32,956 nt of DNA, taken from positions 1 to 32,956 of the forward strand of contig CAIJPN010000011.1 of the NCBI GenBank assembly GCA_903822545.1, in the 5' to 3' direction. The notes beneath the pieces were generated by a model that saw only the letters and a list, made by a program, of their open reading frames with translations, did no database searches and was not told the DNA's origin. Shown in pieces: positions 20,103 through 32,956 of this stretch (the stretch's first letter is position 1; each line of letters begins with the position of its first letter). Origin of the DNA: an uncultured Anaerolineae bacterium (lineage in GTDB: Bacteria > Chloroflexota > Anaerolineae > Anaerolineales > Villigracilaceae). Both the position numbers and the translations under genes were made by a program.

Positions 20103-21602
20103 TTAGGCGGGAGCAGATTCTTTCTTCTCGGGCTTTTCTGGGGCGACAAAGCCCTTGGGCAGCAGCCCTGCTTCGGTGACGATGCGCGGGACGATATCTT
20201 CCCAGCCAACCGGCATGATGTGCAGGCCGTGGATGCCCTGTTTGGTGCGGATTTTCTCGATGATTTCCAGAGAAATCTTGATGCCTTCTTCCTGTGCGCC
20301 TTTGGCGCCGCCCTTGGCTTCGGCGTCCACCATGCGGTCGATGATTGCCTTCGGGACGAACACACCCGGCACCTGGGTCATGAACTGGGTCATCTTGGCG
20401 CTCTTGAGCGGGGTGATGCCGATCATGATGTAGACTTTGTCGAGGATGTTACGTTTGGCCAGTTCGTTCAGCCAGATTTCCATTCGCTCGGGGTCGTAGA
20501 CCAGGTTGGTCTGGAAGAATTGCGCGCCAGCGTTGACTTTCTTGTGTTCGCGCAGCGCCTGGAATTTGGGATCGGATGCAAATGGGGCGGCTGCCGCGCC
20601 GAGGAAAAACTTGGGCGGGAATTTTAACTCGCGCCCATCGAGATAGTGACCTTCGTCGCGCATGCGGCGCAGGATCCAGATCATCTGGACGGCATCCATG
20701 TCGTTGATATCCATGCGTCCACGCGGGGTGGGGGCCAGCACGGGGCTGTCGCCGGTGATGGCAAGCACATTGCGGACGCCCATGGCGGTTGCGCCCAGGA
20801 TTTCTCCCTGGAGGCTGGCGCGGGTGCGGTCGCGAGCGGCAATCTGCATCACGGGTTCAGCGCCAGTATCCACAGCGATCTTGGAGCAGGCCCAGGAGGT
20901 CATGCGCGGGGTGGCAGAAGCATTGTCGGTGAAGTTGATGGCGGTTACGTAGGGCTTTACCAGTTGGATATTTTCCACCAGTTTTTTGGTGGACATGCTC
21001 AGTGGGGGAGCAATTTCGCAGGCTACGACAAATTCACCAGCTTTGAAGCCTTTTTCCAGGTTTGACATGGGTTCGGTGTAGGCCGGGGCGTGGTACTGGT
21101 CATCGCCTTGCCACCAATCTGGCTGGCGGACGGTGCGGAAGATTAAATCCCAGGTTTTGTAGCGTTTTTCGCCCTGGTCGAGCACCAGGCTTTTGATGAC
21201 ATTGCCGGTGCCGTTCTTTTTGACCGTGGAGACAACATCGCCCCAAGTTTCGGTGCCGACTTTTTCCCAGTCTAGCGGAGGCAGCACTTCGAGCAGTTTT
21301 TCCTGGCGTCCCATGGCAAAGGAGCGCTCGTAGATTTTGTACCAGATGCAGGGGCGGGTTTTATCCACATAGCAATGTTCGGGCGTGGAGCCACCGCAGG
21401 GGCCGTTGCGCAGGCCCTTGGGGCATTCCATCGGGCAGATGAAGGCTGTTTCCTGCAAAAGGCAGTTTCCGCACATGCGGCAGCCGAACAGCGGGCCTTT
21501 TAGGGCGTATTCGATGTTTTCGAGAACGGCATTGCCAAACGATTCTTTTTTAAAGGGCGAGTAGGCGGGCTGCCAGCGTCGTCCAGGAGTGAAGATGGGC
21601 AT
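20103..21602 (-). CDS. MetV-MetF fusion, methylenetetrahydrofolate reductase
   Basis: 499 aa. The N-terminal MetV-type domain (to ~residue 170) holds a Cys-rich site, FGCRMCGNCLLQETAFICPM (C41, C44, C47, C56) and C60/C69 in PKGLRNGPCGGS, for iron-sulfur or zinc. The C-terminal flavin TIM barrel is MetF: VACEIAPPLS, VTAINFTDNA, LGATAMGVRNVLAITGD, FFLGAAAAPF, AGAQFFQTNLVYD and YIMIGITPLKS. It reduces methylene-THF to methyl-THF, the substrate of AcsE. In Moorella MetV and MetF are separate subunits working with HdrCBA-MvhD; here they are one chain. GGAG lies 7 nt before the ATG. It ends in a Lys/Glu/Ala-rich tail. Confidence 0.92.
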   Translation of the reverse strand: MPIFTPGRRWQPAYSPFKKESFGNAVLENIEYALKGPLFGCRMCGNCLLQETAFICPMECPKGLRNGPCGGSTPEHCYVDKTRPCIWYKIYERSFAMGRQEKLLEVLPPLDWEKVGTETWGDVVSTVKKNGTGNVIKSLVLDQGEKRYKTWDLIFRTVRQPDWWQGDDQYHAPAYTEPMSNLEKGFKAGEFVVACEIAPPLSMSTKKLVENIQLVKPYVTAINFTDNASATPRMTSWACSKIAVDTGAEPVMQIAARDRTRASLQGEILGATAMGVRNVLAITGDSPVLAPTPRGRMDINDMDAVQMIWILRRMRDEGHYLDGRELKFPPKFFLGAAAAPFASDPKFQALREHKKVNAGAQFFQTNLVYDPERMEIWLNELAKRNILDKVYIMIGITPLKSAKMTQFMTQVPGVFVPKAIIDRMVDAEAKGGAKGAQEEGIKISLEIIEKIRTKQGIHGLHIMPVGWEDIVPRIVTEAGLLPKGFVAPEKPEKKESAPA

Positions 21603-21672: not shown

Positions 21673-22596
21673 TTACTGATTTAAATACGCATCGGCGTAG
21701 ATGACTTTGTTGAGCAGGATCTGGGTGGTCTTCCAGATGGCAAGCTGCTCGGGATCAGACATGTCAAAGTCTTCGGGCTGGGGTTCTTCGTTGGCGCCGG
21801 TGCGTTCGGCAATCTTATTGTAGACGGCCGCCAGCGGGTTGGAAGTGTCTTTGTTTTCGATCCAGCGAATGACATCGTTCTGCTTCTGATCAAACGGGTT
21901 CGCAATCATCATTTGCAGGCCCACACCCATCAGCATGGAGAGATAAACACGGTTGATCAGCGGACGGTTTTCGTTCGGCACGGCATTGGAGACGTTGCTC
22001 AGGCCGACGGAGATCATCGGGGCCGGGTCCCAGGCGTATTGCAACATTTGCACAGCGCCGATCAGGTGCGGGCAATATTGCTGGCAGCCGGATGTGGTGA
22101 GCACCAGCGGGTCGATGATCAGGTCCTGCACGGGCATCCCAACTTCCAGGGCGCGTGGGATCAGTGTTTCAACGGCGATATTGACGCGGGCATCGGCTTC
22201 TACCGGGATGCCGCTGGAGCCCATCGTCAGGGCGATGACTTTCGCGCCGTATTTCTTGGCCAGCAGCGGGATTTTCTCCAGGCGTTCGGGTTCAGCTGAA
22301 GTGGAGTTCAGGATCGGCTGGGCTTTGGTGATATTTTGCAGGGCGGCTTCCATACCGTCCACGTTGGTGGTGTCGATGCACAGCGGCACATCCACAACTT
22401 GCTCCACAGCCTTGACGATCCAGGGGAAGACTTCGGCCCAGTCCTTTTTGCGCGGGCCCATGTTGATGTCAACCGCTGAAGCGCCGGCTTCCACCTGCCG
22501 CACAGCCAGATCCATGAAAAATTCGCTGTCACGGGCGGTCAGCGCCTCTTTGACTTTTTCTGAAATGATGTGAATATTCTCGCCGATGATATACAT
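21673..22596 (-). CDS. acsE: 5-methyltetrahydrofolate:corrinoid iron-sulfur protein methyltransferase
   Basis: 307 aa. A pterin-binding TIM barrel with IIGENIHIIS, GASAVDINMGPRK, VPLCIDTTNVDGMEAAL (the Asp that contacts methyl-THF), ILNSTSAE (the conserved Asn), VIALTMGSSGIP, LIIDPLV and SVGLSNVSNAVPNE, which holds the mobile Asn that helps activate the methyl group. It moves the methyl group from methyl-THF to Co(I) of AcsCD. The core matches Moorella AcsE (262 aa). The extra ~45 residues lie in the C-terminal part (NKDTSNPLAAVYNKIAE, EEPQPEDFDMSDPEQ). AAGGAG lies 6 nt before the ATG. Confidence 0.95.
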   Translation of the reverse strand: MYIIGENIHIISEKVKEALTARDSEFFMDLAVRQVEAGASAVDINMGPRKKDWAEVFPWIVKAVEQVVDVPLCIDTTNVDGMEAALQNITKAQPILNSTSAEPERLEKIPLLAKKYGAKVIALTMGSSGIPVEADARVNIAVETLIPRALEVGMPVQDLIIDPLVLTTSGCQQYCPHLIGAVQMLQYAWDPAPMISVGLSNVSNAVPNENRPLINRVYLSMLMGVGLQMMIANPFDQKQNDVIRWIENKDTSNPLAAVYNKIAERTGANEEPQPEDFDMSDPEQLAIWKTTQILLNKVIYADAYLNQ

Positions 22597-22668: not shown

Positions 22669-24603
22669 TTATCTTTTCTCTTTCGATAGAAGCGCTTCTG
22701 CCACCGTGGGGAATTTATCCATATCGGTATGGGGCAGGAACAGCGCCGAAGTGAAAGCATCGTAAAACGTATTGTCAGCCGAGAGTTCCAAATAGGTCAT
22801 CCGGCTGGCGATTTCTGAAATGCGCTCACGCTGGCGGGTATCAACCAGCGCAAAATACGCGCCTTTGACCGAGGTATTGCCCAGGAATTTGAATTTGTCC
22901 CAGGGCATATCAGGCAGCAGGCCAATTTGCATGGCCTTTTCCACATTTACATATTTACCGAACGAGCCGCCGATGACCATCGTTTCTACGTCGGCCAGGG
23001 TCATGCCGACCTGCTCGGCCAGAATGGTGAAACCGGCGTAAATCGCGGCTTTGGCGCGCAGCAGGTTGTCCACATCCACGCGGGTGATGGCAATATCGTG
23101 CCCGTGTGACGTTTCATCGGCCCAGGCGATGACATATTCGCCGCCCTGGTCGGTGGCGCGCACTCTTTTGGTGGGAAGGCTGAGATTGACGTTGCCAGCC
23201 TTGTCCAGGATACCGGTTAAGAACATTTCGGCGATCAGGGAAATCAACCCCGAACCGCATACGCCCCGGGGCTTGCTCCCGCCAATTACGCGGATGCTCG
23301 GCTCGTAGGTGTCGCCGTTAATCCATACTTCTTCAATTGCGCCGGTAGTGGCGCGCATGCCATCTTTGACGCCCGCACCTTCGAAGGCCGGGCCTGCCGA
23401 ACAGGCGCAGGTCATCAACCAGTCGCGGTTGCCGAGCACGATTTCACCATTGGTGCCGACATCGATGAACAGGGTGATTTCATCGGTGTCATCCATTCCA
23501 TTAGAAAGCACACCCGCAGTGATATCCGCACCCACATAGCTGGCGACGCCGGGCAGGCAGTCCACTACAGCATCGGGACAGAAATGCAGACCCATTTCGC
23601 GGGCAGCCATCAGGGGCGGATGGTTAACGGCGGTGATGAACGGGGCCAGGCGAATCGAGGCAGCGGGAATCCCCAAAAGCAGGTGGATCATGGTCGAATT
23701 CCCAGCGATGATGGCTTTGACGATTTGGTCGGGCCGGGTTTTGAGCCGTTTGCAGGCGGTTTCGCCCAGTTTGTTGATGGTGCCAACTACCCGGTGTTGC
23801 AGGTCATCGCTGCCGCCATGTTTGCTGGCGTAGATGATGCGGCTGATTACATCTTCGCCGCGCACGATCTGGTCGTTGTATTCTGCTACCTGGGCTTTGA
23901 CCTGCCCGGTGACAAGATCGACCAGCCAGAGTGAAACGGTGGTGGTGCCAATATCGATGGCGGCGGCGTAAATGGGCTCATCTTCATCGCAAATCGAGGG
24001 GCGCACATCGATGATGTGCGCGGCGCTGTGGTTGTCGAGGTTTTTTAGCTCGTAGATGACGTTGACTTCCCAATTGCCATCGCGCAGAACCTGCCCGAGC
24101 CGCCGCAGCAGGGAGATGGAGGCTTCGACCGTTTCCAGTTTGTGCTGTACGCGCAGGGCGGTTTGCAGGCGCGCCCAGTCGTCGGTCTGGTCATCCATGG
24201 ATGGTTCGTTCATGCGCACATTGACGCGGCGCACGGTCTGCGACCAGTTGATATCGTAGCCGCTGGGGACGCTGACTTCTGCCGCAACGCGGTCAGTGGT
24301 CAGGTTTCGTTCGATTTTTTCCTGTTCGGGTACCAGGATGGATGCATCCCCCTCGATCACGCTCTGGCAGGCGAGGGCGTAGCCCTGTTCGACGGCTTCT
24401 TGCGAAAGCCGCAGGGTGGAGCGCCTCCGCACGTTGCCACCGGTGATCTGGATTGCGCAACGCCCACAGCGTCCCTGACCGCCGCACGGCTGGGTGATTT
24501 CTATTCCAGCTTGTTGCGCAGCGTCAGAGACCAATGTCCCGGTGAGGGCGCTGGCGGTGACGGTTTTACCGTCGGAGGTGGTGAAGGTGATGGTGTGGTT
24601 CAT
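22669..24603 (-). CDS. acsV: Reductive activator of the corrinoid iron-sulfur protein (RACo/AcsV)
   Basis: 644 aa. The N-terminal plant-type 2Fe-2S ferredoxin domain has Cys 40, 46, 49 and 79 (QPCGGQGRCGRCAIQ ... ALACQS). A linker follows, then a C-terminal ASKHA ATPase domain with YAAAIDIGTTTVSLWLVDL (phosphate 1), IVKAIIAGNSTMIHLLLG, TLFIDVGTNGEIVLGN (phosphate 2), GVCGSGLISLIAEM and VETMVIGGSFGKYVNVE. It uses ATP to push an electron uphill onto Co(II) that has become oxidised in AcsCD. Standard length. It lies between acsC and acsE as in known acetogen clusters. The ribosome-binding site is weak, just after a perfect palindrome that could influence translation. Confidence 0.95.
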   Translation of the reverse strand: MNHTITFTTSDGKTVTASALTGTLVSDAAQQAGIEITQPCGGQGRCGRCAIQITGGNVRRRSTLRLSQEAVEQGYALACQSVIEGDASILVPEQEKIERNLTTDRVAAEVSVPSGYDINWSQTVRRVNVRMNEPSMDDQTDDWARLQTALRVQHKLETVEASISLLRRLGQVLRDGNWEVNVIYELKNLDNHSAAHIIDVRPSICDEDEPIYAAAIDIGTTTVSLWLVDLVTGQVKAQVAEYNDQIVRGEDVISRIIYASKHGGSDDLQHRVVGTINKLGETACKRLKTRPDQIVKAIIAGNSTMIHLLLGIPAASIRLAPFITAVNHPPLMAAREMGLHFCPDAVVDCLPGVASYVGADITAGVLSNGMDDTDEITLFIDVGTNGEIVLGNRDWLMTCACSAGPAFEGAGVKDGMRATTGAIEEVWINGDTYEPSIRVIGGSKPRGVCGSGLISLIAEMFLTGILDKAGNVNLSLPTKRVRATDQGGEYVIAWADETSHGHDIAITRVDVDNLLRAKAAIYAGFTILAEQVGMTLADVETMVIGGSFGKYVNVEKAMQIGLLPDMPWDKFKFLGNTSVKGAYFALVDTRQRERISEIASRMTYLELSADNTFYDAFTSALFLPHTDMDKFPTVAEALLSKEKR

Positions 24604-24649: not shown

Positions 24650-26014
24650 TTAGTTGTTAAGTGCCGTCTTCATGTATCCCGGCAGGTCAACCGCTTCGCG
24701 CGGGCCAACGCGGATTTCCCAATCGGGAAGTTCAGCTTCGAGTTCGCCAGAGAGCACGGCCACGTGCCCGGGCAGGACAACGCGTTTGCGGCTGACTTTG
24801 CTGGCCACATTGAAGCCCTTGATGGCTTTGGCGATGCGCTCAGAGTCAAATTTACCGGCGGCCCAGGCGGTCAACACGGACATGCCTTCGGCGTCGCAGA
24901 CCAGCAGCCAGGCGGGCAGGCCAGAGCCTTCGACTTCGTTCGCCACCGCAAAGTAGGTGATGCTGAAGTTGGTGGTGATGAGTACGGGGCTTTCGGGCTT
25001 GGGGTTGTTGATTTCGTAGATGCCCGGGGTGACCTGGATGGGTTTCTGTGGGTCGGTGTAGATGTTTTCGCGCAGCACGAGCAGGCCGTAGAGCAGTTCG
25101 GGGACGAATTTGTCGAGCACGACGAAGCCAGCGTATTTGGCGATGGCCTGGGCAGCGGCGATGCCTTCATCGGCGGCGTTGCATGCAAAGGAAATGACCG
25201 GGAAGCCCAAGGCGCGGAAGTTTTTGAGCGCCAGGCGGCGAATCTGGGTGTATTTGGCAATCGAAGCGCCGAGTTTGGTGCTGGATGGGTCAATGACGAA
25301 ATCTTCGAGGCCTTTGCCTTTGAGTTTGTCGGTCAGGTCGGCCAGGGTGTCGAGGTTGTCGGCGCAAACAGCCAGGGGGGCGTTGAGCTTTTTGGCCAGG
25401 TCGCCCATGGCTTCCCAGTTGGCGGAATCGGCGCCGTAGAGCAGGGGAGTTTCCCCGGGCAGGGCTGCGGCTCCAGCTTCGAGCACTTTTGCATCTTTGG
25501 CAACCAGGATCAGGGGCCGTTTGGTGGCGGAGCGAACCGCTTTAACGGCATCTGCAAATTTGGTGGGATCACTTGTGCCCGATAGGGTATCTGCTTCAAC
25601 GGCGAAGCCATCCACGGTGAAATCCATACCCACGTAGTTGACTTTGTAGGCGTCAGCTTTGGCGACTTCGGCGGCGATGTTGGCTTGGGATGCTTTGACG
25701 CGCACGAACAGACCGGGTTTGTTATAGAAGGTTTTTTCGTGGCGGAACAGGCAGACTTCGTTGCCGGCCTTGATGCTGCTGCCGGGGCCTTTGAGTGTGA
25801 TCAGGCGGATGGGCGGCGCGGAAGATTCGGCCAGTTTTGTCTTGGATTCTTCGCTGACGTAGGGGCAGGCCGCGAGTTCAACCTGTTTGGCGGCAAGTTT
25901 CATGGCGAAGGCCATGCAGGTGGGGATGCCGCATTCTTTGCAGTTGGCTTTGGGGTGCGGTGGGCGCTGGCCGCCGGGCAGTAGTTTGAAAATTTCAATA
26001 CCAGTGAGTGCCAT
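24650..26014 (-). CDS. acsC: Corrinoid iron-sulfur protein, large subunit
   Basis: 454 aa. The N-terminal 4Fe-4S domain has four Cys (C25, C28, C33, C50: NCKECGIPTC ... AACPYV) and carries electrons to the corrinoid. A TIM barrel follows (LYGADSANWEAMGDLAKKL, DFVIDPSS, FPVISFACNAADEG). The C-terminal Rossmann-like cobalamin-binding domain has ITTNFSITYFAVANEVEGS and PAWLLVCDAEGMSVLTAWAAGKF. With AcsD it carries the methyl group from AcsE to AcsB. AAGGAG lies 7 nt before the ATG, and the gene follows acsD by 10 bp. Confidence 0.96.
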   Translation of the reverse strand: MALTGIEIFKLLPGGQRPPHPKANCKECGIPTCMAFAMKLAAKQVELAACPYVSEESKTKLAESSAPPIRLITLKGPGSSIKAGNEVCLFRHEKTFYNKPGLFVRVKASQANIAAEVAKADAYKVNYVGMDFTVDGFAVEADTLSGTSDPTKFADAVKAVRSATKRPLILVAKDAKVLEAGAAALPGETPLLYGADSANWEAMGDLAKKLNAPLAVCADNLDTLADLTDKLKGKGLEDFVIDPSSTKLGASIAKYTQIRRLALKNFRALGFPVISFACNAADEGIAAAQAIAKYAGFVVLDKFVPELLYGLLVLRENIYTDPQKPIQVTPGIYEINNPKPESPVLITTNFSITYFAVANEVEGSGLPAWLLVCDAEGMSVLTAWAAGKFDSERIAKAIKGFNVASKVSRKRVVLPGHVAVLSGELEAELPDWEIRVGPREAVDLPGYMKTALNN

Positions 26015-26024
26015 GGTTCTCTCC

Positions 26025-26969
26025 TTATGCTGCCATGAGTTCGTTGATGGCAGCGCGGATGCGCTTCATCGATTCGGGGTGGCGCAGAACAACAATGCTG
26101 GCGCCGGATTCAAGCAGGGCGGTGGTGGTCAGGGTTTCCCAGTGAATGGCGCGGGCTTTCCAATCGCCCCAGGCTTCGGGAACGCCGGTGCCAACTTTGG
26201 ATTCTTTGGCTTTCCAGGCTTCGAAGCCAACGGTGACCATCATGGGGAATTGGGTCATGCCATCGCCTTGCAGGGATGCCAGGCGCAGGCGTTCCATGAC
26301 CGAGTAGCCGTATTCGATGCCATAGCCGAGTGCGCCGGTGGTCGGGTCCATGATGATGCGGTTGGCGGGCAGGCCCATATCGGTGATGAGGATGTTAAGC
26401 TGTTTGGCCAGGTTAACATCCATGGGGGTGCGGGCGCTGACGAGGTGCCCGTTGGCCATGGCGGTGGCAACGATGGTGCGGTAGTTTTTGTCTTCGCAGA
26501 TGCCCAGGACGAGTTTTTCGCCTTTGGCGGCTTCAGAGACTGCGACAAGCAGTTCGTTGTCTTTCTCAACCTGCCCGGGGCCAAAGACCATCAGCGGCAG
26601 TGCAGAGGCGGCCAGGACGGCTTTGGTGGCCTTGACAGCGTCTTCGGGAGTATCCGCCAGGGTCAGCCACAGGACGAGTGCATCGGCCCCGGCAGCTTCG
26701 GCGGCTTTGGCCCATGAGGCCGGGTCGTTCATGGCATCGCCCCAGGTCTCTTCCAGCAGCGTAGACCAGTCTTCGGGCCTGCGTGATTTAATTTCGACAG
26801 CAATAACCGGGGTGTGTGGTGTGGGGGCTTCGAACTGCATATATGGCAGTGTGGTATCCCCGCCCACAACGATGGATTTGGAGCGGGTGCCGCCATCTGC
26901 GGCGGTTGCTCCAAAACTGACTTCCCGTACTTTGCCTGTCCATTTATCTTTTGGGATTTCTACTGGCAT
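26025..26969 (-). CDS. acsD: Corrinoid iron-sulfur protein, small subunit
   Basis: 314 aa from the ATG at 26969 (MPVEIPKDKWTGKV), chosen because AAGGAG lies 7 nt upstream. Family features include VVGGDTTLPYMQFEAPTPHTPVIAVEI, the TIM-barrel strands DALVLWLTLADTPEDAVK and LPLMVFGPGQVEKD, IIMDPTTGALGYGIEYGYSVMER and FPMMVTVGFEAWKAKE. It forms the heterodimer with AcsC that cradles the corrinoid. Normal length (Moorella ~323 aa). It follows the CBS gene after a short palindrome-bearing gap. Confidence 0.96.
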   Translation of the reverse strand: MPVEIPKDKWTGKVREVSFGATAADGGTRSKSIVVGGDTTLPYMQFEAPTPHTPVIAVEIKSRRPEDWSTLLEETWGDAMNDPASWAKAAEAAGADALVLWLTLADTPEDAVKATKAVLAASALPLMVFGPGQVEKDNELLVAVSEAAKGEKLVLGICEDKNYRTIVATAMANGHLVSARTPMDVNLAKQLNILITDMGLPANRIIMDPTTGALGYGIEYGYSVMERLRLASLQGDGMTQFPMMVTVGFEAWKAKESKVGTGVPEAWGDWKARAIHWETLTTTALLESGASIVVLRHPESMKRIRAAINELMAA

Positions 26970-27015
26970 GGTGTCTCTCCTTGGGTTGAAAAGTATCGGT
27001 GTTATAAGTTCACAG

Positions 27016-27042
27016 GTAGGCAGGGGCAAATGGCCTGCCTAC
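27016..27042. repeat. 9-bp inverted repeat over the CBS-gene stop codon
   Basis: GTAGGCAGG (27016-27024) and CCTGCCTAC (27034-27042). The TAG stop of the CBS-domain gene (27041-27039) is inside the right-hand arm. It lies in the gap before acsD. Confidence 0.7.
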
Positions 27043-27530
27043 TTATTTATGCTTTTTCGGCGTGCTTCATCACGGCGCTCGATGAATTGTTCGAGCGGGG
27101 ATTTGCGCGCGGCTTCCAGGCCCAGGTCTTTCAATTCGTTTGCATCCCTGGCAGACATGTGGCGCAGGATGTGTTTATAGGTGATAAAGGCCGCCGGGTA
27201 GATGATCCCGGCTGAGTTGTGGGTCATGTAGGCGATGCGGGTGTGCTGGTCACGCATGAACTGGGCAGCCAGTTCAAGGGGCATCTCGGCTTGCAGGGTG
27301 GGCATGTCCTCGCGCATGATATCTTCAGCGGTCAGCTCGGGCAGGTTTTCCTTCCCATAGACGGCCACCAACTCCTCTGCGCTGACCAGACCCACGCCGT
27401 GACCTTCTTCATCCAGCACGCACATGCCCTCAACGTTGTGTTCCAGCAGGAAACGAGCAATATCCACAACGGGAGTTGTGGTTTTGCAAGTCGGCACGCC
27501 GACAGACATGAGATCGCGCACAAACTTCAT
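27039..27530 (-). CDS. CBS-domain pair protein in the CODH/ACS operon
   Basis: 163 aa with two CBS motifs in tandem. One is VRDLMSVGVPTCKTTTPVVDIARFLLEHNVEGMCVLDEEGHGVGLVSAEELV; the other is AEDIMREDMPTLQAEMPLELAAQFMRDQHTRIAYMTHNSAGIIYPAAFITYKHIL. A basic helical tail follows (KSPLEQFIERRDEARRKSINK). CBS pairs bind adenine nucleotides such as AMP, ATP or SAM, so this is a plausible energy or cofactor sensor. No catalytic domain is attached. It starts 3 bp after the zinc-ribbon gene and precedes acsD, so it is co-translated with carbonyl-branch genes; any regulatory role on them is inferred. Confidence 0.88.
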   Translation of the reverse strand: MKFVRDLMSVGVPTCKTTTPVVDIARFLLEHNVEGMCVLDEEGHGVGLVSAEELVAVYGKENLPELTAEDIMREDMPTLQAEMPLELAAQFMRDQHTRIAYMTHNSAGIIYPAAFITYKHILRHMSARDANELKDLGLEAARKSPLEQFIERRDEARRKSINK

Positions 27531-27533
27531 CTG

Positions 27534-27794
27534 CTATTCGTCCTCAAGCCGATCTCCACAATTCCTGCAATATTTGTCAAATTGCCCAACCTTATTGGCA
27601 CACTTGCTGCAAAGCCATTCTTCCGGTTCTTCGTCATTGCTGACAGTTTCAGATACATTCTCAAAATCTTCTACGCTGAAATCAATCGTTGCAACCGGGA
27701 GATTCATCGCGCGCTTGATCGCATCTATATCCGCCTGGAGTTTTTCCAGCCGGGCGATCACTTCGGCGCTTTGCAGGTAATTGAACGAGTCCAT
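27534..27794 (-). CDS. Coiled-coil plus zinc-ribbon small protein
   Basis: 86 aa. The N-terminal helix (SAEVIARLEKLQADIDAIKRAM, residues 9-30) is followed by an acidic linker (VEDFENVSETVSNDEEPEE) and a C-terminal zinc ribbon with Cys 62, 65, 76 and 79 (WLCSKCANKVGQFDKYCRNCG). GGAG lies 9 nt before the ATG. It follows a terminator-like hairpin after acsB and leads directly into the CBS gene. No family function recognised; the helix-plus-ribbon layout suits an oligomeric adaptor or metal-handling protein for CODH/ACS, but that is a guess. Confidence 0.8.
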   Translation of the reverse strand: MDSFNYLQSAEVIARLEKLQADIDAIKRAMNLPVATIDFSVEDFENVSETVSNDEEPEEWLCSKCANKVGQFDKYCRNCGDRLEDE

Positions 27795-27933: not shown

Positions 27934-30204
27934 TTAGAACATGGCCTCCATGATCATCGCCGGATGACCATGCGCTTCCAGCCAGGCCAGGAGTTCATCG
28001 ACGGTGGTCACATTGCGTTCGTCGGCGATTTTGTCGATCAGGTCAGGATCGCCTTCGCGCTCTGCCACGGCCTTGAATTCATCGGCCATGGCTTCTTTCA
28101 GTACAGAGGACATCCAAACCACGCGCTTGAAGCCGCCATCCGCCGAGATGAATTTGGGGCTGATCAGGTAATACTTGCCGACACCCATCACGCCCGGGGT
28201 CTGGAGCCCGCCACCGGCGATGCCCGCCAGCGTCGAGAAGGTCATGCCGGCCGGGGTCATGCTGGTATCTTCGCGGCTCACTACCATCACGCCGTTGGCT
28301 TCTGGGATGAGCATCACGATGCACTCGAAGCAGCCGCAGGCCGTCATCGGGTTTTCCATGATGGAGTACATGGAAACTTCGTTGACCACGCCGTGCGAAC
28401 CCATCGAAGCGTATTCGTTCGTGCCGGTCCAGTAACCCTTCTTCGTGTCCATCGGGATGCCGAGTTTGATGGGCTGGTTGGGGCCGGTCGGGTTGATGTT
28501 GAAGGATGCTTTGCAGTCCAGCCAGTTGTAGGCGCCGCACAGGCCAAGACGCTGCGGGCTGACCACGCAAACATGGTTGGGAGCGAAGCTCTGACAAAGT
28601 GTGCAAGAATAGAATTCTTCCACCTTATCATCGGTCAGGTCGGCCAGGCGCCTGTTGCGGAAATCGTACGTTTCGCGCGCCTTGCCCAGCATTTCCTCGA
28701 ACAGCGCCGGGTCGGTGTAAACCGTTACCTGGACTTTGTCCACGATCGCGCCAAAGTCAGCGTGGAAACGGGCGTGCAGGATTTTGCCGATATCGGCCAG
28801 GCCGAAGCCCTTATCTGCTGCGGCATTAGAGATGCGCACCCAGGCAATATCGCGCTGGCCGACATGCTGGATGCCGCTCGCGCCGTTGACAAAGTAGTGG
28901 ATCTGACGCTCGAGCACCGGCTCGAAATCGGCCTGCATCGACCGCCCTGCCACTTTGATCACCACGCCCACGCTCATGTGGCCCTGTGGCGGAATCTGGC
29001 TGAAATCGGGGCCGACCACTTCCACTTTGCCATCCACCACTTCTTCCAGCGGGGCGGTATAGAGATATTCGAAGCAGCGGCTGTGCTTGCCGCCAAATTC
29101 CACACGCAGGTCGGCCTTGCGGACAACTTCGCCTTCAAACGCCGAGCCGTACGGAACCGGGATCGGCACTTCGGTCATCTTGATCTTGACGCCGCGCACT
29201 TCGATACACTTTTGGATCAGCCGTTCGGCGCGTTCCAGGTCATCCGCGCCATCGATTTTGTCGAAGGGCATAGAGACGACGTGTTCGTAGGTGGTCACGC
29301 CGGTCGGCAGGATTTCAGGGATGATCGTATCCGCGATGACGGGGAAGCCATAGTTGATGGCGCCCGCAGCCGCAGCGTACTTGAGATCATCCACTTCGCC
29401 GAGAGCCAGCACGAAGGCAAACACACGCTCTTTGTTATAGAGCAGGATTTCTTTCGCCATGCCCGCTTTCAGGCCGCCGAAGGTCAGCGCGGAGCGCGAG
29501 GCAAAACCGATTGGGTAGATGGCAGAGATGGTGTCGGTGCCAAAGGGTACGGTATAAGTATCGTAGCCGAGTTCCACACCTTCTTCCTGGAGCTGGTCAA
29601 TGATCGAGCGACCGTTGACGTTGCCGCACAGGAAGGTCAGGATGTTGCGCTTTTGCAGTTCACGCACGATTTTCACTGCAACTTCGTTCGATTTCGCGCA
29701 GCCAACGATGGCCGCGAAACCGGGCATACGACCATCCACCAGTTGGATACCCCACGAGCGCAGGCGGATGTCGTCGATCGGGCCGTTCAGGTAGCCGCCA
29801 TCTTCACCCAGGTGCGGGTAAGCCGTGCCGCCGCCGAGTTTGAATCCAGGGCGCGGTTCGGGTTGCAGGCTGTAGATGAATCGAATGGTTTCGATGGTTT
29901 CAGCGGCGAACAGGGTCGCCATGCCGCTGTCGAGGGTTTCACCCAGGTAGGGCGTCCACTTGCTGGCGGATGGGACGGGGTGCAGCAGCGAGCGGGCCAA
30001 TACCATCACATCTTTGAGCTGGCCGAGTTTTTCAACTGCAATGCCGGTCATGGCATAGATGGTCGGCAGGTAATAGGCCGTGTTGGGGAATGAAACCGGG
30101 GTTTCGGGGCCTTTTTCGGCCAGGGCCTTGTTCAGCATGAACTCGGCTTCGTTTACAAGAGCATTTGCGCCGCGGATGGCGCGAGTAGCGATATATCGAG
30201 ACAT
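27934..30204 (-). CDS. acsB: Acetyl-CoA synthase, bacterial type
   Basis: 756 aa (Moorella AcsB 729). The N-terminal CODH-docking domain is present (LGGGTAYPHLGEDGGYLNGPIDDIRLRSWG, GFAAIVGCAKSNEVA). The middle CoA-binding domain follows, then the A-cluster domain: SCTLCQSFAPNHVC, GLCGAYNWLDCKA and ACGCFEC supply the Cys ligands of the 4Fe-4S cluster and the two-metal (Ni-Ni) site, including the Cys-Gly-Cys-type backbone ligand, here C-G-C-F-E-C. It makes acetyl-CoA from CO, the AcsCD methyl group and CoA. The presence of the N-terminal domain marks the bacterial rather than archaeal CdhC form. GGAGG lies 8 nt before the ATG. Confidence 0.97.
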   Translation of the reverse strand: MSRYIATRAIRGANALVNEAEFMLNKALAEKGPETPVSFPNTAYYLPTIYAMTGIAVEKLGQLKDVMVLARSLLHPVPSASKWTPYLGETLDSGMATLFAAETIETIRFIYSLQPEPRPGFKLGGGTAYPHLGEDGGYLNGPIDDIRLRSWGIQLVDGRMPGFAAIVGCAKSNEVAVKIVRELQKRNILTFLCGNVNGRSIIDQLQEEGVELGYDTYTVPFGTDTISAIYPIGFASRSALTFGGLKAGMAKEILLYNKERVFAFVLALGEVDDLKYAAAAGAINYGFPVIADTIIPEILPTGVTTYEHVVSMPFDKIDGADDLERAERLIQKCIEVRGVKIKMTEVPIPVPYGSAFEGEVVRKADLRVEFGGKHSRCFEYLYTAPLEEVVDGKVEVVGPDFSQIPPQGHMSVGVVIKVAGRSMQADFEPVLERQIHYFVNGASGIQHVGQRDIAWVRISNAAADKGFGLADIGKILHARFHADFGAIVDKVQVTVYTDPALFEEMLGKARETYDFRNRRLADLTDDKVEEFYSCTLCQSFAPNHVCVVSPQRLGLCGAYNWLDCKASFNINPTGPNQPIKLGIPMDTKKGYWTGTNEYASMGSHGVVNEVSMYSIMENPMTACGCFECIVMLIPEANGVMVVSREDTSMTPAGMTFSTLAGIAGGGLQTPGVMGVGKYYLISPKFISADGGFKRVVWMSSVLKEAMADEFKAVAEREGDPDLIDKIADERNVTTVDELLAWLEAHGHPAMIMEAMF

Positions 30205-30218
30205 GGGTTCTTCCTCCG

Positions 30219-30269
30219 TAGCGAAAGAAAGAAGAAAGATTTCTTTCCTCTTTCCTTCTTTCTTTGCTA
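30219..30269. repeat. Near-perfect A/G-rich inverted repeat between cooS and acsB
   Basis: On the minus strand the arm starts at the cooS TAG stop (TAGCAAAGAAAGAAGG...). It is mirrored by ...CTTCTTTCTTTCGCTA, ~21-nt arms with one bulge and one mismatch around ~9 nt. It ends 6 nt before the acsB ribosome-binding site. There is no U tract that would terminate. Confidence 0.75.
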
Positions 30270-32279
30270 GTCAGCTGCAACGCCGTAGATTGCGGCGCGA
30301 CGTTGGTCAAGCGGCAGGGCTTCAAGTTCAACCATCTGGGCATCGCCAGAGCGGCCAAAGCGGTCAGCTTTCCATTCGGGCAGGCCGAGCGCAGCGCGTT
30401 TCTTGTCGATATGTTCCAGTGTGGCGCGGATCATCTCATCAGGATCTGCGATAAATTCCAGCTTGCCACCGAATTTCTTCTCCCAGCCTTCGGAGATGTA
30501 CTTCAAAACGTGATCGCTGTCGGTCACGCGATCGGGCATACCGCTGATGGGTGACTGCCCGCCGAAGATGACATAGGCGCCGGATGCCACGCAGTAGGTG
30601 GCAATCGCCAGGGCTTTTTCAGACATCCACTCAGGGGCCAGGCCAACTGCCGGGACCTGGTCAATATCATCGCCCAGGCCGCCTTCTTCCACCATCTGGG
30701 TCAGCACGGTCAGGATGCGGGTATTATCCACGCAGGAGCCCATGTGCAGCACGGGCGGGATGCCAACCGTTTCGCACACTTCGCGCAGGCCGGGGCCAAC
30801 CTGGTCGATGCCAGCTTCGCCGAGCAGCAGGCCGAGCTTGGCAGATGCGATCGCGCCGCAGCCGGTCTGGACAACGAGAACATCCTTCTTTAGCAGTTCG
30901 CGCACCACCTGGACGTGCAGGTAATCCTGCTTCGAGCGCGGGTTGTTGCAGCCGACGATGGCTGCCACGCCACGAATACGTCCGCTCATGATGGCATCGT
31001 TCAGCGGGCGGAAGCTGGCGCGGTACGAGCCGCCCAGCATGTAGTTAATATATTCATGCGAGAAGCCCGGAATCAGGTCTTCTTTGATCTGCGGAATGTG
31101 AGTCTTGCCACGATTCTTATAATTATCGATGGATTCCTTCAAAATCTGCTTGGCGATTGAGAAGGCATGGTGTTCATCGAACTCGATGTGCGTTGCGCCC
31201 TTAATCTTCACCTTGGATGAAGTGGTGATGATCTTGGTGTGGAAATTCTTGGCAAGTTCCACCAGCGCCTGCATGATGCACTGCACATCCACCACCATCG
31301 ATTCAACCGCGCCGGTCATAATGGAAAGTTCCTGGTGCAGGAAATTCCCCGCAGCCGGGATGCCCTGGCGCATCAGGATTTCATTGGCGGTGCAGCAAAT
31401 GCCAGAAAGCTGGATGCCTTTGGCACCGGCGGCTTTGGCGTATTCGATGATCTCGGGGTCTTGCGAAGCCGCTACGATCATCTCGCTCAGGGTCGGTTCG
31501 TGCCCGTGAACGACAACATTGACCATGTCATCCTTTAGCACGCCCAGGTTGGCCTGTCCCAGCACCGGGGCGGGAGTGCCGAAAATGATGTCAGAAACAT
31601 CCGTGGCAATCATCGAGCCAGCCCAGCCGTCCGAAAGGCCGGTCTTGATGGCATGGTCGAGAATGTGTTCGTAATCCTGGTCATCGCCGATGTGTGTGCG
31701 GTGCAGGGCTTCCACTACTTCGCGGTCAACGCCGCGAGGAATAACATTGTGAGCCTTCCAGCGTTCCTGGCGCTTCTTGGGAGCGCGGCGCACCGGGGCA
31801 ACCTCGCCGCGCTGCTGGCCGAATTGGGCAATATACAGGTCCGCCAGATCATTGGCGATTTCTTCTGGCGCGCGGCCTTCGATTTTGATGTCATAATAAG
31901 CAGCCACCATGCGCAGCTTGGCAACATCCTTGATGCGGTAGCCTTCGGCTTCGCCGTTGGCAGCCGCCTTCAAAATGAAAGCCATATCGCGCCCGTGGTC
32001 AGAGTGTGCAGCAGACCCAGCGGCAATCGCGCGAGTCAGGTTGCGAGCCTGGATGGTTTCCAGCGTCGCACCGCAGACGCCCACATCACCATTCTTGGTC
32101 AGGCGGCAGGGGCCCATACCGCATTGCTTACAGCACATGCCCGCCGCGCCGATATTGCACGGAGCCATATTGTCGGCGCGAGAAAAAGCGGTGCCAATAC
32201 CCAACTCTTCCGCGCGAATAATCATCTGCTGCGCGGCAGGATCAATAGTATATTCCTGGATTTCACGTTTCTTAGCCAT
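30267..32279 (-). CDS. cooS: Ni-Fe-S carbon monoxide dehydrogenase catalytic subunit
   Basis: 670 aa (typical ~630-675). N-terminal cluster ligands are Cys 41 and 49 (D cluster) and Cys 50, 53, 58 and 69 (B cluster) in PCNIGAAGMCCKQCGMGPC ... VGVCGAT. C-cluster ligands are visible in VVHGHEPTLSE (His), GICCTANEILMRQG, VGCNNPRSKQDY, QTGCGAIASAK, MGSCVDNTR and ATYCVASGAYVIFGG. It interconverts CO and CO2, and as the AcsA subunit feeds CO through a tunnel to AcsB. GAGG lies 6 nt before the ATG. It starts 9 bp after the HMA-like gene. No cooC nickel-insertion ATPase is present in the window. Confidence 0.97.
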   Translation of the reverse strand: MAKKREIQEYTIDPAAQQMIIRAEELGIGTAFSRADNMAPCNIGAAGMCCKQCGMGPCRLTKNGDVGVCGATLETIQARNLTRAIAAGSAAHSDHGRDMAFILKAAANGEAEGYRIKDVAKLRMVAAYYDIKIEGRAPEEIANDLADLYIAQFGQQRGEVAPVRRAPKKRQERWKAHNVIPRGVDREVVEALHRTHIGDDQDYEHILDHAIKTGLSDGWAGSMIATDVSDIIFGTPAPVLGQANLGVLKDDMVNVVVHGHEPTLSEMIVAASQDPEIIEYAKAAGAKGIQLSGICCTANEILMRQGIPAAGNFLHQELSIMTGAVESMVVDVQCIMQALVELAKNFHTKIITTSSKVKIKGATHIEFDEHHAFSIAKQILKESIDNYKNRGKTHIPQIKEDLIPGFSHEYINYMLGGSYRASFRPLNDAIMSGRIRGVAAIVGCNNPRSKQDYLHVQVVRELLKKDVLVVQTGCGAIASAKLGLLLGEAGIDQVGPGLREVCETVGIPPVLHMGSCVDNTRILTVLTQMVEEGGLGDDIDQVPAVGLAPEWMSEKALAIATYCVASGAYVIFGGQSPISGMPDRVTDSDHVLKYISEGWEKKFGGKLEFIADPDEMIRATLEHIDKKRAALGLPEWKADRFGRSGDAQMVELEALPLDQRRAAIYGVAAD

Positions 32280-32288
32280 AATTTACCT

Positions 32289-32678
32289 CTACTCTTCATC
32301 CATTTTGGAAACCACACCCATGCCGGGGCAATTCCACAGCGGGCGGCCGCTATAAGGCACAGTCTGGGCAAAACTGACAGTTTTCTTTACCGTCTCATAG
32401 GTCGCAGTATGCCTGAAATGACCATCTGCTTCGGTGCGCTGGGCCGCCACACCCGTTTCCATCATAAGCAAACTGTCATTCAGGTAACCGAGATCATCCA
32501 GCGTCTTCATCAGGACATCGTGCGTCACCTTGGATTCGTCAAAACTGACTTCCACCATGCGGAACGCACTGCTGGCATACACATCTGTCACACCATCGAC
32601 AGCAAATAAAAGACGCCTGACCTCAGTGACGTGATGGTCACCGTACAGGGCAGGCGCATTAAAAATGGATTTTTGCAT
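32289..32678 (-). CDS. HMA-like domain protein without CxxC, first gene of the CODH operon
   Basis: 129 aa from the ATG at 32678, chosen because GGAGG lies 7 nt upstream. Residues ~8-70 fit the ferredoxin-like heavy-metal-associated fold: HHVTEVRRLLFAVDGVTDVYAS, RMVEVSFDESKVTHDVLMKTLDDLGY. The metal-binding M-x-C-x-x-C loop is replaced by ALYGDHHVTEV (His15-His16). The C-terminal half (VKKTVSFAQTVPYSGRPLWNCPGMGVVSKMDEE) matches nothing I recognise and holds the only Cys. Being the promoter-proximal gene directly before cooS, it may handle nickel or assist CODH maturation, but that is inference. Confidence 0.75.
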   Translation of the reverse strand: MQKSIFNAPALYGDHHVTEVRRLLFAVDGVTDVYASSAFRMVEVSFDESKVTHDVLMKTLDDLGYLNDSLLMMETGVAAQRTEADGHFRHTATYETVKKTVSFAQTVPYSGRPLWNCPGMGVVSKMDEE

Positions 32679-32749
32679 AGCAAAACCTCCTCCCGGGGAT
32701 TTATTTTGTTGTACTTGCAGGTTAATAGCAATACAATTACATAGAAGTA

Positions 32750-32758: not shown

Positions 32759-32800
32759 TGCGGTTTTCCATCTCATCGTGCTAAATGTCACACAAAATTT

Positions 32801-32815: not shown

Positions 32816-32840
32816 TTATTGATGGAACATTCATCAATAA
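32816..32840. promoter_or_regulatory. Perfect 9-bp inverted repeat in the divergent region
   Basis: TTATTGATG (32816-32824) and CATCAATAA (32832-32840) with a 7-nt centre. It lies between the CODH operon and a divergent gene at the right edge; candidate operator. Confidence 0.55.
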
Positions 32841-32896
32841 CCCAAAGTGATAATAAAAAGACCCTTGTAGTGGCGGAAGGTTATAATCACAGCTCT

Positions 32897-32956
32897 ATGC
32901 GGAAACTGACCATCACCTTCTTACTTAGCCTGTTGGTTTTCACCGCCACCTGGCAA
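32897..32956 (+). CDS. Start of an exported protein, cut by the window edge
   Basis: Twenty codons are visible: MRKLTITFLLSLLVFTATWQ, a basic N-terminus followed by a hydrophobic core, i.e. the beginning of a signal peptide or membrane anchor. TATAAT at 32882-32887 lies 9 nt before the ATG and no Shine-Dalgarno sits at the usual distance, so the mRNA is probably nearly leaderless. Divergent from the CODH/ACS operon. Function cannot be told. Confidence 0.6.
   Translation, partial: MRKLTITFLLSLLVFTATWQ

Follow-up and report, generated by a model that had tools for sequence, protein, structure and literature searches.

The window, i.e. the whole stretch of 32,956 nt analysed here, carries an operon for carbon monoxide dehydrogenase (CODH) and acetyl-CoA synthase (ACS). 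Its first gene encodes a small protein that resembles the copper chaperones of the heavy-metal-associated (HMA) type without having their CxxC motif, which raises the question of what such a protein does in front of a nickel CODH. How nickel gets to the C-cluster of CODH and to the A-cluster of ACS is little understood. A partner that is small, invariant and genetically fixed offers a direct test of nickel delivery. According to excerpts of PMC6006190, CooC is proposed to open the C-cluster during maturation, with CooJ and CooT bringing nickel in Rhodospirillum rubrum, and the functions of the latter two are still unclear.

The gene and its operon

The gene (32289-32678, minus strand, 129 aa), named DHH-HMA here after its Asp-His-His loop, is a real gene. 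Its ATG is preceded by GGGAGGAGG (32686-32694, minus strand), a strong ribosome binding site as read from the sequence, and GGAG-type sites precede the starts of most relatives examined. An alternative, longer ATG is present at 32771. At the position of Met1 of the window protein, the relatives share a start codon, being ATG in 125, GTG in 19 and TTG in 3 of 147 places, as picked by a script. Both the open reading frame and the 9-bp gap to cooS given in the initial annotation of this DNA were confirmed in the window.

The operon is a Wood-Ljungdahl CODH/ACS operon, with all of the following genes on the minus strand. Downstream of the 9-nt gap lies cooS/acsA (30267-32279), encoding the 670-aa catalytic subunit of the Ni-CODH (TIGR01702, 599.5 bits against a cut-off of 478), followed by the acetyl-CoA synthase gene acsB (27934-30204; NF040764 and Pfam). 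The two subunits of the corrinoid Fe-S protein come next, the small one at 26025-26972 (CdhD family) and the large one at 24650-26014 (CdhD and FeS), which we take to be acsD and acsC, respectively, based on position. The remaining genes encode AcsV, a RACo-type activator of the corrinoid protein (22669-24603; RACo families), an AcsE-like methyltransferase (21673-22596; Pterin_bind) and a methylenetetrahydrofolate reductase with a DUF5981 (MTHFR C-terminal) domain (20103-21602; MTHFR and DUF5981).

Some minor features of the operon can be added. The TIGR01702 match stops at residue 633 of 670, so that about 37 residues at the end of CooS lie beyond it (30267-30380 in the window). Between acsB and the CBS gene, a protein of 86 aa with a zinc-ribbon-like C-terminus is encoded (27534-27794, minus strand; weak Pfam matches below cut-off), for which no tblastn match was found at 1e-6 in 147 stretches, the window's own copy being outside its stretch. 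A CBS-domain protein (27039-27530, minus strand; domain match), possibly an energy-state regulator, is also part of the operon and has matches in 55 of the 147 stretches.

HMA core and loop

Residues 1-66 (32481-32678, minus strand) are an HMA domain, judging from sequence matches and predicted fold. The window protein itself matches Pfam HMA with E=0.003 and 18.4 bits, below the cut-off of 24.8, and NCBIfam CopZ at 3.9e-6, also below its cut-off. Among the 72 members of alignment A3, 71 match Pfam HMA (PF00403) at E<=1, the best at 6.6e-9. Two structure models were made, from 21 and 72 sequences. In the second AlphaFold model, the core is predicted in the order strand-helix-strand-strand-helix with a pLDDT of about 95, and CopZ (2qif) fits it with a Z of 12.9 over 68 residues; the listed PDB matches include CopZ, MerP and Menkes domains. 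The HMA-like domain proposed at the outset is thus supported by the Pfam matches of the members, NCBIfam CopZ and the predicted fold. As a whole, the CopZ/MerP metallochaperones (PF00403; 2qif, 6ff2 and 1osd) share their fold with residues 1-68 of DHH-HMA, at Z 11.9-12.9 and 25-28% identity, as well as the position of the loop. In contrast to them, DHH-HMA has [A/G]DHH instead of CxxC, a conserved tail and CODH/ACS genes as neighbours, and its predicted models are without the last beta-strand of the core.

The codons for Gly13-Asp14-His15-His16 occupy 32631-32642 (minus strand), so the metal loop of the window protein had been correctly read as GDHH. When aligned to CopZ, its MxCxxC loop corresponds to [M/L]-[Y/W/F]-[A/G]-D-H-H in the family. 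The first Cys is replaced by Gly or Ala, Asp14-His15 take the place of the x-x residues and His16 alone stands at a Cys place. Describing the loop as His-His instead of CxxC is therefore loose: CxxC is indeed absent, but only one His is at a Cys place, with Ala/Gly at the other, and the position of His15 is already His in CxHC relatives.

A profile scan of the class gave matches in 205 of 396 genomes at E<=1e-6. Only matches with E<1e-15 were counted (147 places in 146 genomes; the next listed match is at 2.4e-11). The [A/G]DHH loop, and not the CxxC of CopZ/Atx1-type proteins, is found in 146 of these 147 places, 98 with Ala and 48 with Gly; in the sole exception (G417), the gene begins at the contig end, downstream of the loop. 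D14, H15 and H16, invariant in the first alignment of 21 sequences, remain so in an alignment of 145 (two short fragments dropped from 147), where the mean pairwise core identity is 48% and the only strictly invariant core columns are D14, H15, H16, G29 and Y65. Since G29 and Y65 recur in ordinary CxHC relatives, Asp-His-His is the mark of the family itself. A35-S36-S37 are well conserved too (138, 143 and 123 of 145) and lie in the loop between strands 2 and 3, which in this fold shares a face with the metal loop. In a scan of 400 genomes of the phylum, 15 of 26 matches are of the DHH kind; the other 11 include nine whose sequences were extracted (all but L022 and L026), each with C-x-H-C. 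Weak matches in genomes lacking the DHH type (L286-L293, n=8) all have CxxC.

Could the protein be an ordinary CopZ copper chaperone which has lost its motif and is decaying? The weak Pfam score of the window protein would fit. However, the loop stays invariant when representatives of 49 clusters with less than 60% identity in the core are compared, which refutes this reading and leaves it with next to no probability. Judged by this conservation, the change in the loop is no chance lapse.

Linkage to cooS and acsB

With cooS called at E<1e-100 (157 of 396 genomes of the class), 145 genomes have both genes, 1 has only DHH-HMA, 12 have only cooS and 238 have neither (Fisher P 1e-92, relatedness being ignored). 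In the single DHH-only genome (G688), the gene is at a contig end. The linkage to cooS, for which the initial annotation had called together with conservation of the His pair, is very strong in the class: in 142 of the 147 places, cooS begins downstream on the same strand, at most 900 nt from the DHH-HMA start. In G504 and G439 it lies about 4 kb away, and three further stretches end first. Of the 25 genomes in the family of the window, 9 carry the two genes and 16 carry neither. The phylum scan agrees, as all 15 DHH-type genomes have cooS, side by side with DHH-HMA in 13. The other two, G002 and G015, lack cooS on the contig of the DHH gene, which in G015 lies 581 bases from the contig end and in G002 is a damaged or misassembled copy. 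Within the one class of one phylum covered by these counts, DHH-HMA resembles CODH accessory proteins in being encoded with CODH and occurring in CODH genomes.

As a side observation, ferredoxin-, NuoE- and NuoF-like genes, named from reading the sequence, lie between the DHH gene and cooS in G504 (L222), and in G439 (L232) the two are likewise about 4 kb apart.

The link extends to acsB: 130 of the 142 stretches have it after cooS on the same strand and no more than 4 kb away, 112 of them at a distance of up to 500 nt and the remaining 18 at 0.5 to 3.9 kb. Where there is at least 1 kb of room after cooS, 123 of 125 stretches have acsB; in the two exceptions, G427 and G622, acsB is on another contig. 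Twenty fetched cooS stretches were counted as DHH-less. Fifteen of these have no acsB in the stretch, which covers about 3 to 7 kb after cooS, and none of the fifteen has DHH-HMA; three others are cut at or near the edge and the last two belong to G471 and G089. The second cooS of G471 is acsB-linked, and the last part of a DHH gene is visible at the edge of its contig. In G089, the cooS-acsB pair is truly without DHH-HMA. For four genomes (G425, G428, G455 and G404), a cooS of a second kind, with no acsB in the stretch, was fetched, and here DHH-HMA accompanies the acsB-linked copy alone.

The idea that all cooS without DHH-HMA encode stand-alone enzymes was considered and rejected, as eight of the genomes with acsB-less stretches carry acsB elsewhere (G408, G434, G029, G121, G081, G270, G177 and G194). 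In G029, a third cooS on contig C17 adjoins acsB, with no DHH match on C17. Among the cooS-only genomes of the class, G361, G415, G424, G520 and G525 are without acsB at E<=1e-50, G408 and G434 have acsB on another contig, and G458 and G592 have acsB and no DHH match. The contig starts at cooS in G524 and G647, and 1.4 kb before cooS in G536, a genome from a family in which two genomes have DHH-HMA about 4 kb away. Outside these, five members of the phylum with small genomes of 1.1-1.9 Mb (G298, G066, G057, G178 and G162) have cooS-acsB without DHH-HMA, with acsD upstream of the pair. The DHH-less ACS-linked CODHs (the five small genomes, G089, C17 of G029, and G408 and G434) indicate that DHH-HMA is not indispensable. 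It goes with the acsB-linked CODH of certain lineages and is not needed by all.

Some cooS copies (G404:C167, G415:C301 and G011:C12; 53-55% identity) have one in-frame TAG within the match, and those that were fetched (L262 and L266) have no acsB in the stretch.

The C-terminal tail

Residues 67-129 (32292-32480, minus strand) form a tail for which no confident fold is predicted, with mean pLDDT blocks of 41-51 and 48-59 from residue 71 on in the two models, though it is conserved. The single Cys of the window protein (C117) is located here, as had been said of its C-terminal segment, within the conserved motif RPLWNCPGMG (residues 112-121; 32316-32345, minus strand). This motif belongs to one of two tail types: W-x-C-P-G or close forms against the rest, which mostly end in forms of M/L-S/A-G-(D/E)-F-R-K-Y. 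As the Cys is absent from the second type, it is ruled out as a ligand shared by all members. The types, represented by 57 (W-x-C-P-G) and 85 sequences with cooS in reach, differ in their cooS, with a median identity to the window cooS of 81% and 62%, respectively.

These observations bear on the strongest rival explanation, namely that DHH-HMA is a metal-free small subunit or an assembly/docking protein of CODH/ACS, in which the HMA fold is kept as a protein-binding surface. The Asp-His-His and A-S-S loops would then be the contact face, with the tail folding on the partner. The match of the two tail types with two cooS groups, the missing last beta-strand, the conserved tail without predicted fold, the conservation of A35-S36-S37 and G64-Y65 besides the loop and the company of acsB-linked cooS in the class would all suit such a protein. 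In our judgement, however, an unsubstituted Asp and two adjacent His at exactly the metal place of HMA domains exceed what a contact face usually needs, and we consider this explanation rather unlikely.

CooC-type genes on the overlapping contig

The initial annotation stated that no cooC is present and suggested a search of the genome. The statement is true of the window contig only, and none is visible there because the window is a whole contig which stops at the contig end. Its last 141 bases (32816-32956) match the end of another contig of this genome, C227, without a difference, an exact overlap as expected of k-mer assembly contigs. A CAP/LysM gene is cut by the end of the window and runs on into C227. 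Divergent from the CODH operon, C227 encodes this CAP/LysM protein, a formate/nitrite transporter, a DUF3786 protein and two CooC-type ATPases, which match the solved CooC 3kje at 1.9e-45 (first) and 3e-16 (second). If the joint between C11 and C227 is right, the first CooC starts about 3.4 kb from the DHH-HMA start. In ten near relatives (L082-L086, L088 and L027-L030), one contig carries both the DHH gene and, next to it, the divergent CooC-CooC pair; in an eleventh (L087), the pair is absent from the 18-kb stretch and a CooC is found about 33 kb off on the same contig. In more distant members of the class, the pair is mostly no neighbour of DHH-HMA: 74 of 83 wide stretches contain neither CooC nor DUF3786, the first CooC being present in 5 and the second in 8.

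At the genome level, a CooC-type gene (E<=1e-10) was found in 54 of 54 DHH genomes tested. All 4 cooS-only genomes have one as well, and none of 22 genomes without cooS does. Within the 54, the CooC match is below 1e-80 in 51 and a fragment in G583, and G413 and G420 have only a weaker one. The setting in which DHH-HMA replaces CooC, suggested by a window contig without cooC, is refuted by the two CooC-type genes on C227 and by CooC-type matches in all 54 DHH genomes tested, and can be given practically no weight. CooC/AcsF thus occurs in the same genomes as DHH-HMA, near the window even at the same locus, and is probably its partner. CooC/AcsF is a P-loop ATPase to which DHH-HMA has no visible sequence relation: the window protein has no P-loop ATPase Pfam domain at E<=1 and, with one Cys only, no CxC.

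The DUF3786 protein adjoining the CooC pair (L051, 5691-6359 on contig C227; Pfam 6e-41) is encoded next to the pair in 8 of the 10 near relatives having it. It may be another CODH/ACS accessory protein; DUF3786 is not mentioned among the literature matches listed.

Putative role in CODH/ACS maturation

The invariance of the His pair and the very strong linkage to cooS make a role in CODH assembly or as nickel carrier a good hypothesis, and neither of the two outcomes named in the initial annotation as refuting it was observed. This part of the original proposal stands, whereas that of a stand-in for CooC does not. We propose that DHH-HMA is an accessory (maturation) protein dedicated to the ACS-linked nickel CODH, putatively passing nickel together with CooC, and we see the chances of this as even. 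A putative nickel carrier working with CooC is the most likely form, and the protein probably helps to load or assemble the CODH/ACS complex in many Chloroflexota.

Asp and His suit Ni2+ better than Cu+. Asp14, His15 and His16 may provide a site of nitrogen and oxygen ligands that favours Ni2+ over Cu+, from which nickel would be passed to the C-cluster of CODH or the A-cluster of ACS, with CooC opening the site. Given the link to acsB, the A-cluster is as likely a target as the C-cluster. The tail, whose type varies with the type of cooS, might dock on CODH, ACS or CooC. Speaking against a metal site is the presence of His at only one of the two Cys places; Asp14 could also be a helix cap instead of a ligand, and CooC alone may suffice.

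A metal binder with another task, either a sensor or a guard keeping Cu or Zn out of the A-cluster of ACS, which is inactivated by Cu or Zn in its proximal site, should also be weighed. The listed relatives of the fold are mostly Cu, Hg or Zn proteins, and in the class DHH-HMA is tied to the acsB-linked CODH rather than to every CODH. On the other hand, loops of His and Asp bind Cu(I) poorly, neither a transporter nor a regulator was seen as a constant neighbour of the DHH-HMA gene, and the genome of the window has CxxC HMA domains elsewhere (four other HMA matches on another contig, with CxxC loops). A sensor or guard thus appears improbable, more so than a docking protein.

Returning to the nickel carrier, DHH-HMA would fill for these bacteria the role proposed for CooJ and CooT in R. 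rubrum. Both of these are likewise small, their genes lie next to CODH along with that of CooC, and nickel delivery has been proposed for them, CooJ having a His-rich tail and CooT being an all-beta dimer that binds Ni via Cys2 (excerpts of PMC6006190). DHH-HMA shares with them its small size, its place beside CODH and the presence of CooC in the same genomes. Its tail, unlike that of CooJ, is not His-rich (two His in 63 residues of the window protein). CooT (PF10133) gave no match at E<=1 among the 72 DHH-HMA members, and none was found in the window genome.

As described in excerpts of PMC4186839, the Streptomyces protein SCO4226 has a ferredoxin-like fold without CxxC and binds Ni via His, Asp and other residues at exposed sites of low affinity (Kd 10 uM); histidine is reported there as a common nickel ligand. 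Such a fold without CxxC is common to SCO4226 and DHH-HMA. No shared Pfam family appears among the rows listed for the 72 members, a comparison at Pfam level only, and in contrast to DHH-HMA, SCO4226 has no CODH link in those excerpts.

Somewhat more tentatively, at a little below even chances, DHH-HMA could represent a histidine-based branch of the HMA metallochaperones that serves, together with CooC, nickel or another borderline metal of CODH/ACS, and as such a further kind of maturation protein. DHH-HMA accompanies the majority of cooS-acsB pairs in one class of Chloroflexota and occurs in three families of other classes. If true, a change in one loop can adapt the fold of copper chaperones to a harder metal. 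The protein also bears on the heterologous production of CODH/ACS for CO2 fixation.

Earlier descriptions and distribution

Among the literature matches listed, judged by title and opening of the abstract, none describes a protein that combines the HMA fold with an invariant Asp-His-His loop and a fixed place with CODH/ACS. A 2026 survey of CODH gene neighbourhoods gives CooC, CooJ and CooT as the maturation machinery, and a term search of the main text found neither 'HMA' nor 'heavy metal' (PMC13056359). A plasmid search gave no match to the DHH-HMA gene, and among viral contigs 31 stretches fitted a pattern, none of which encoded a relative. Named records, in a scan that picks up only close relatives, hold close relatives of the window protein at 7 loci, all from Anaerolineae or Chloroflexi by title. 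The genome scans were made within Chloroflexota, where DHH-HMA reaches beyond the class into the three families of other classes.
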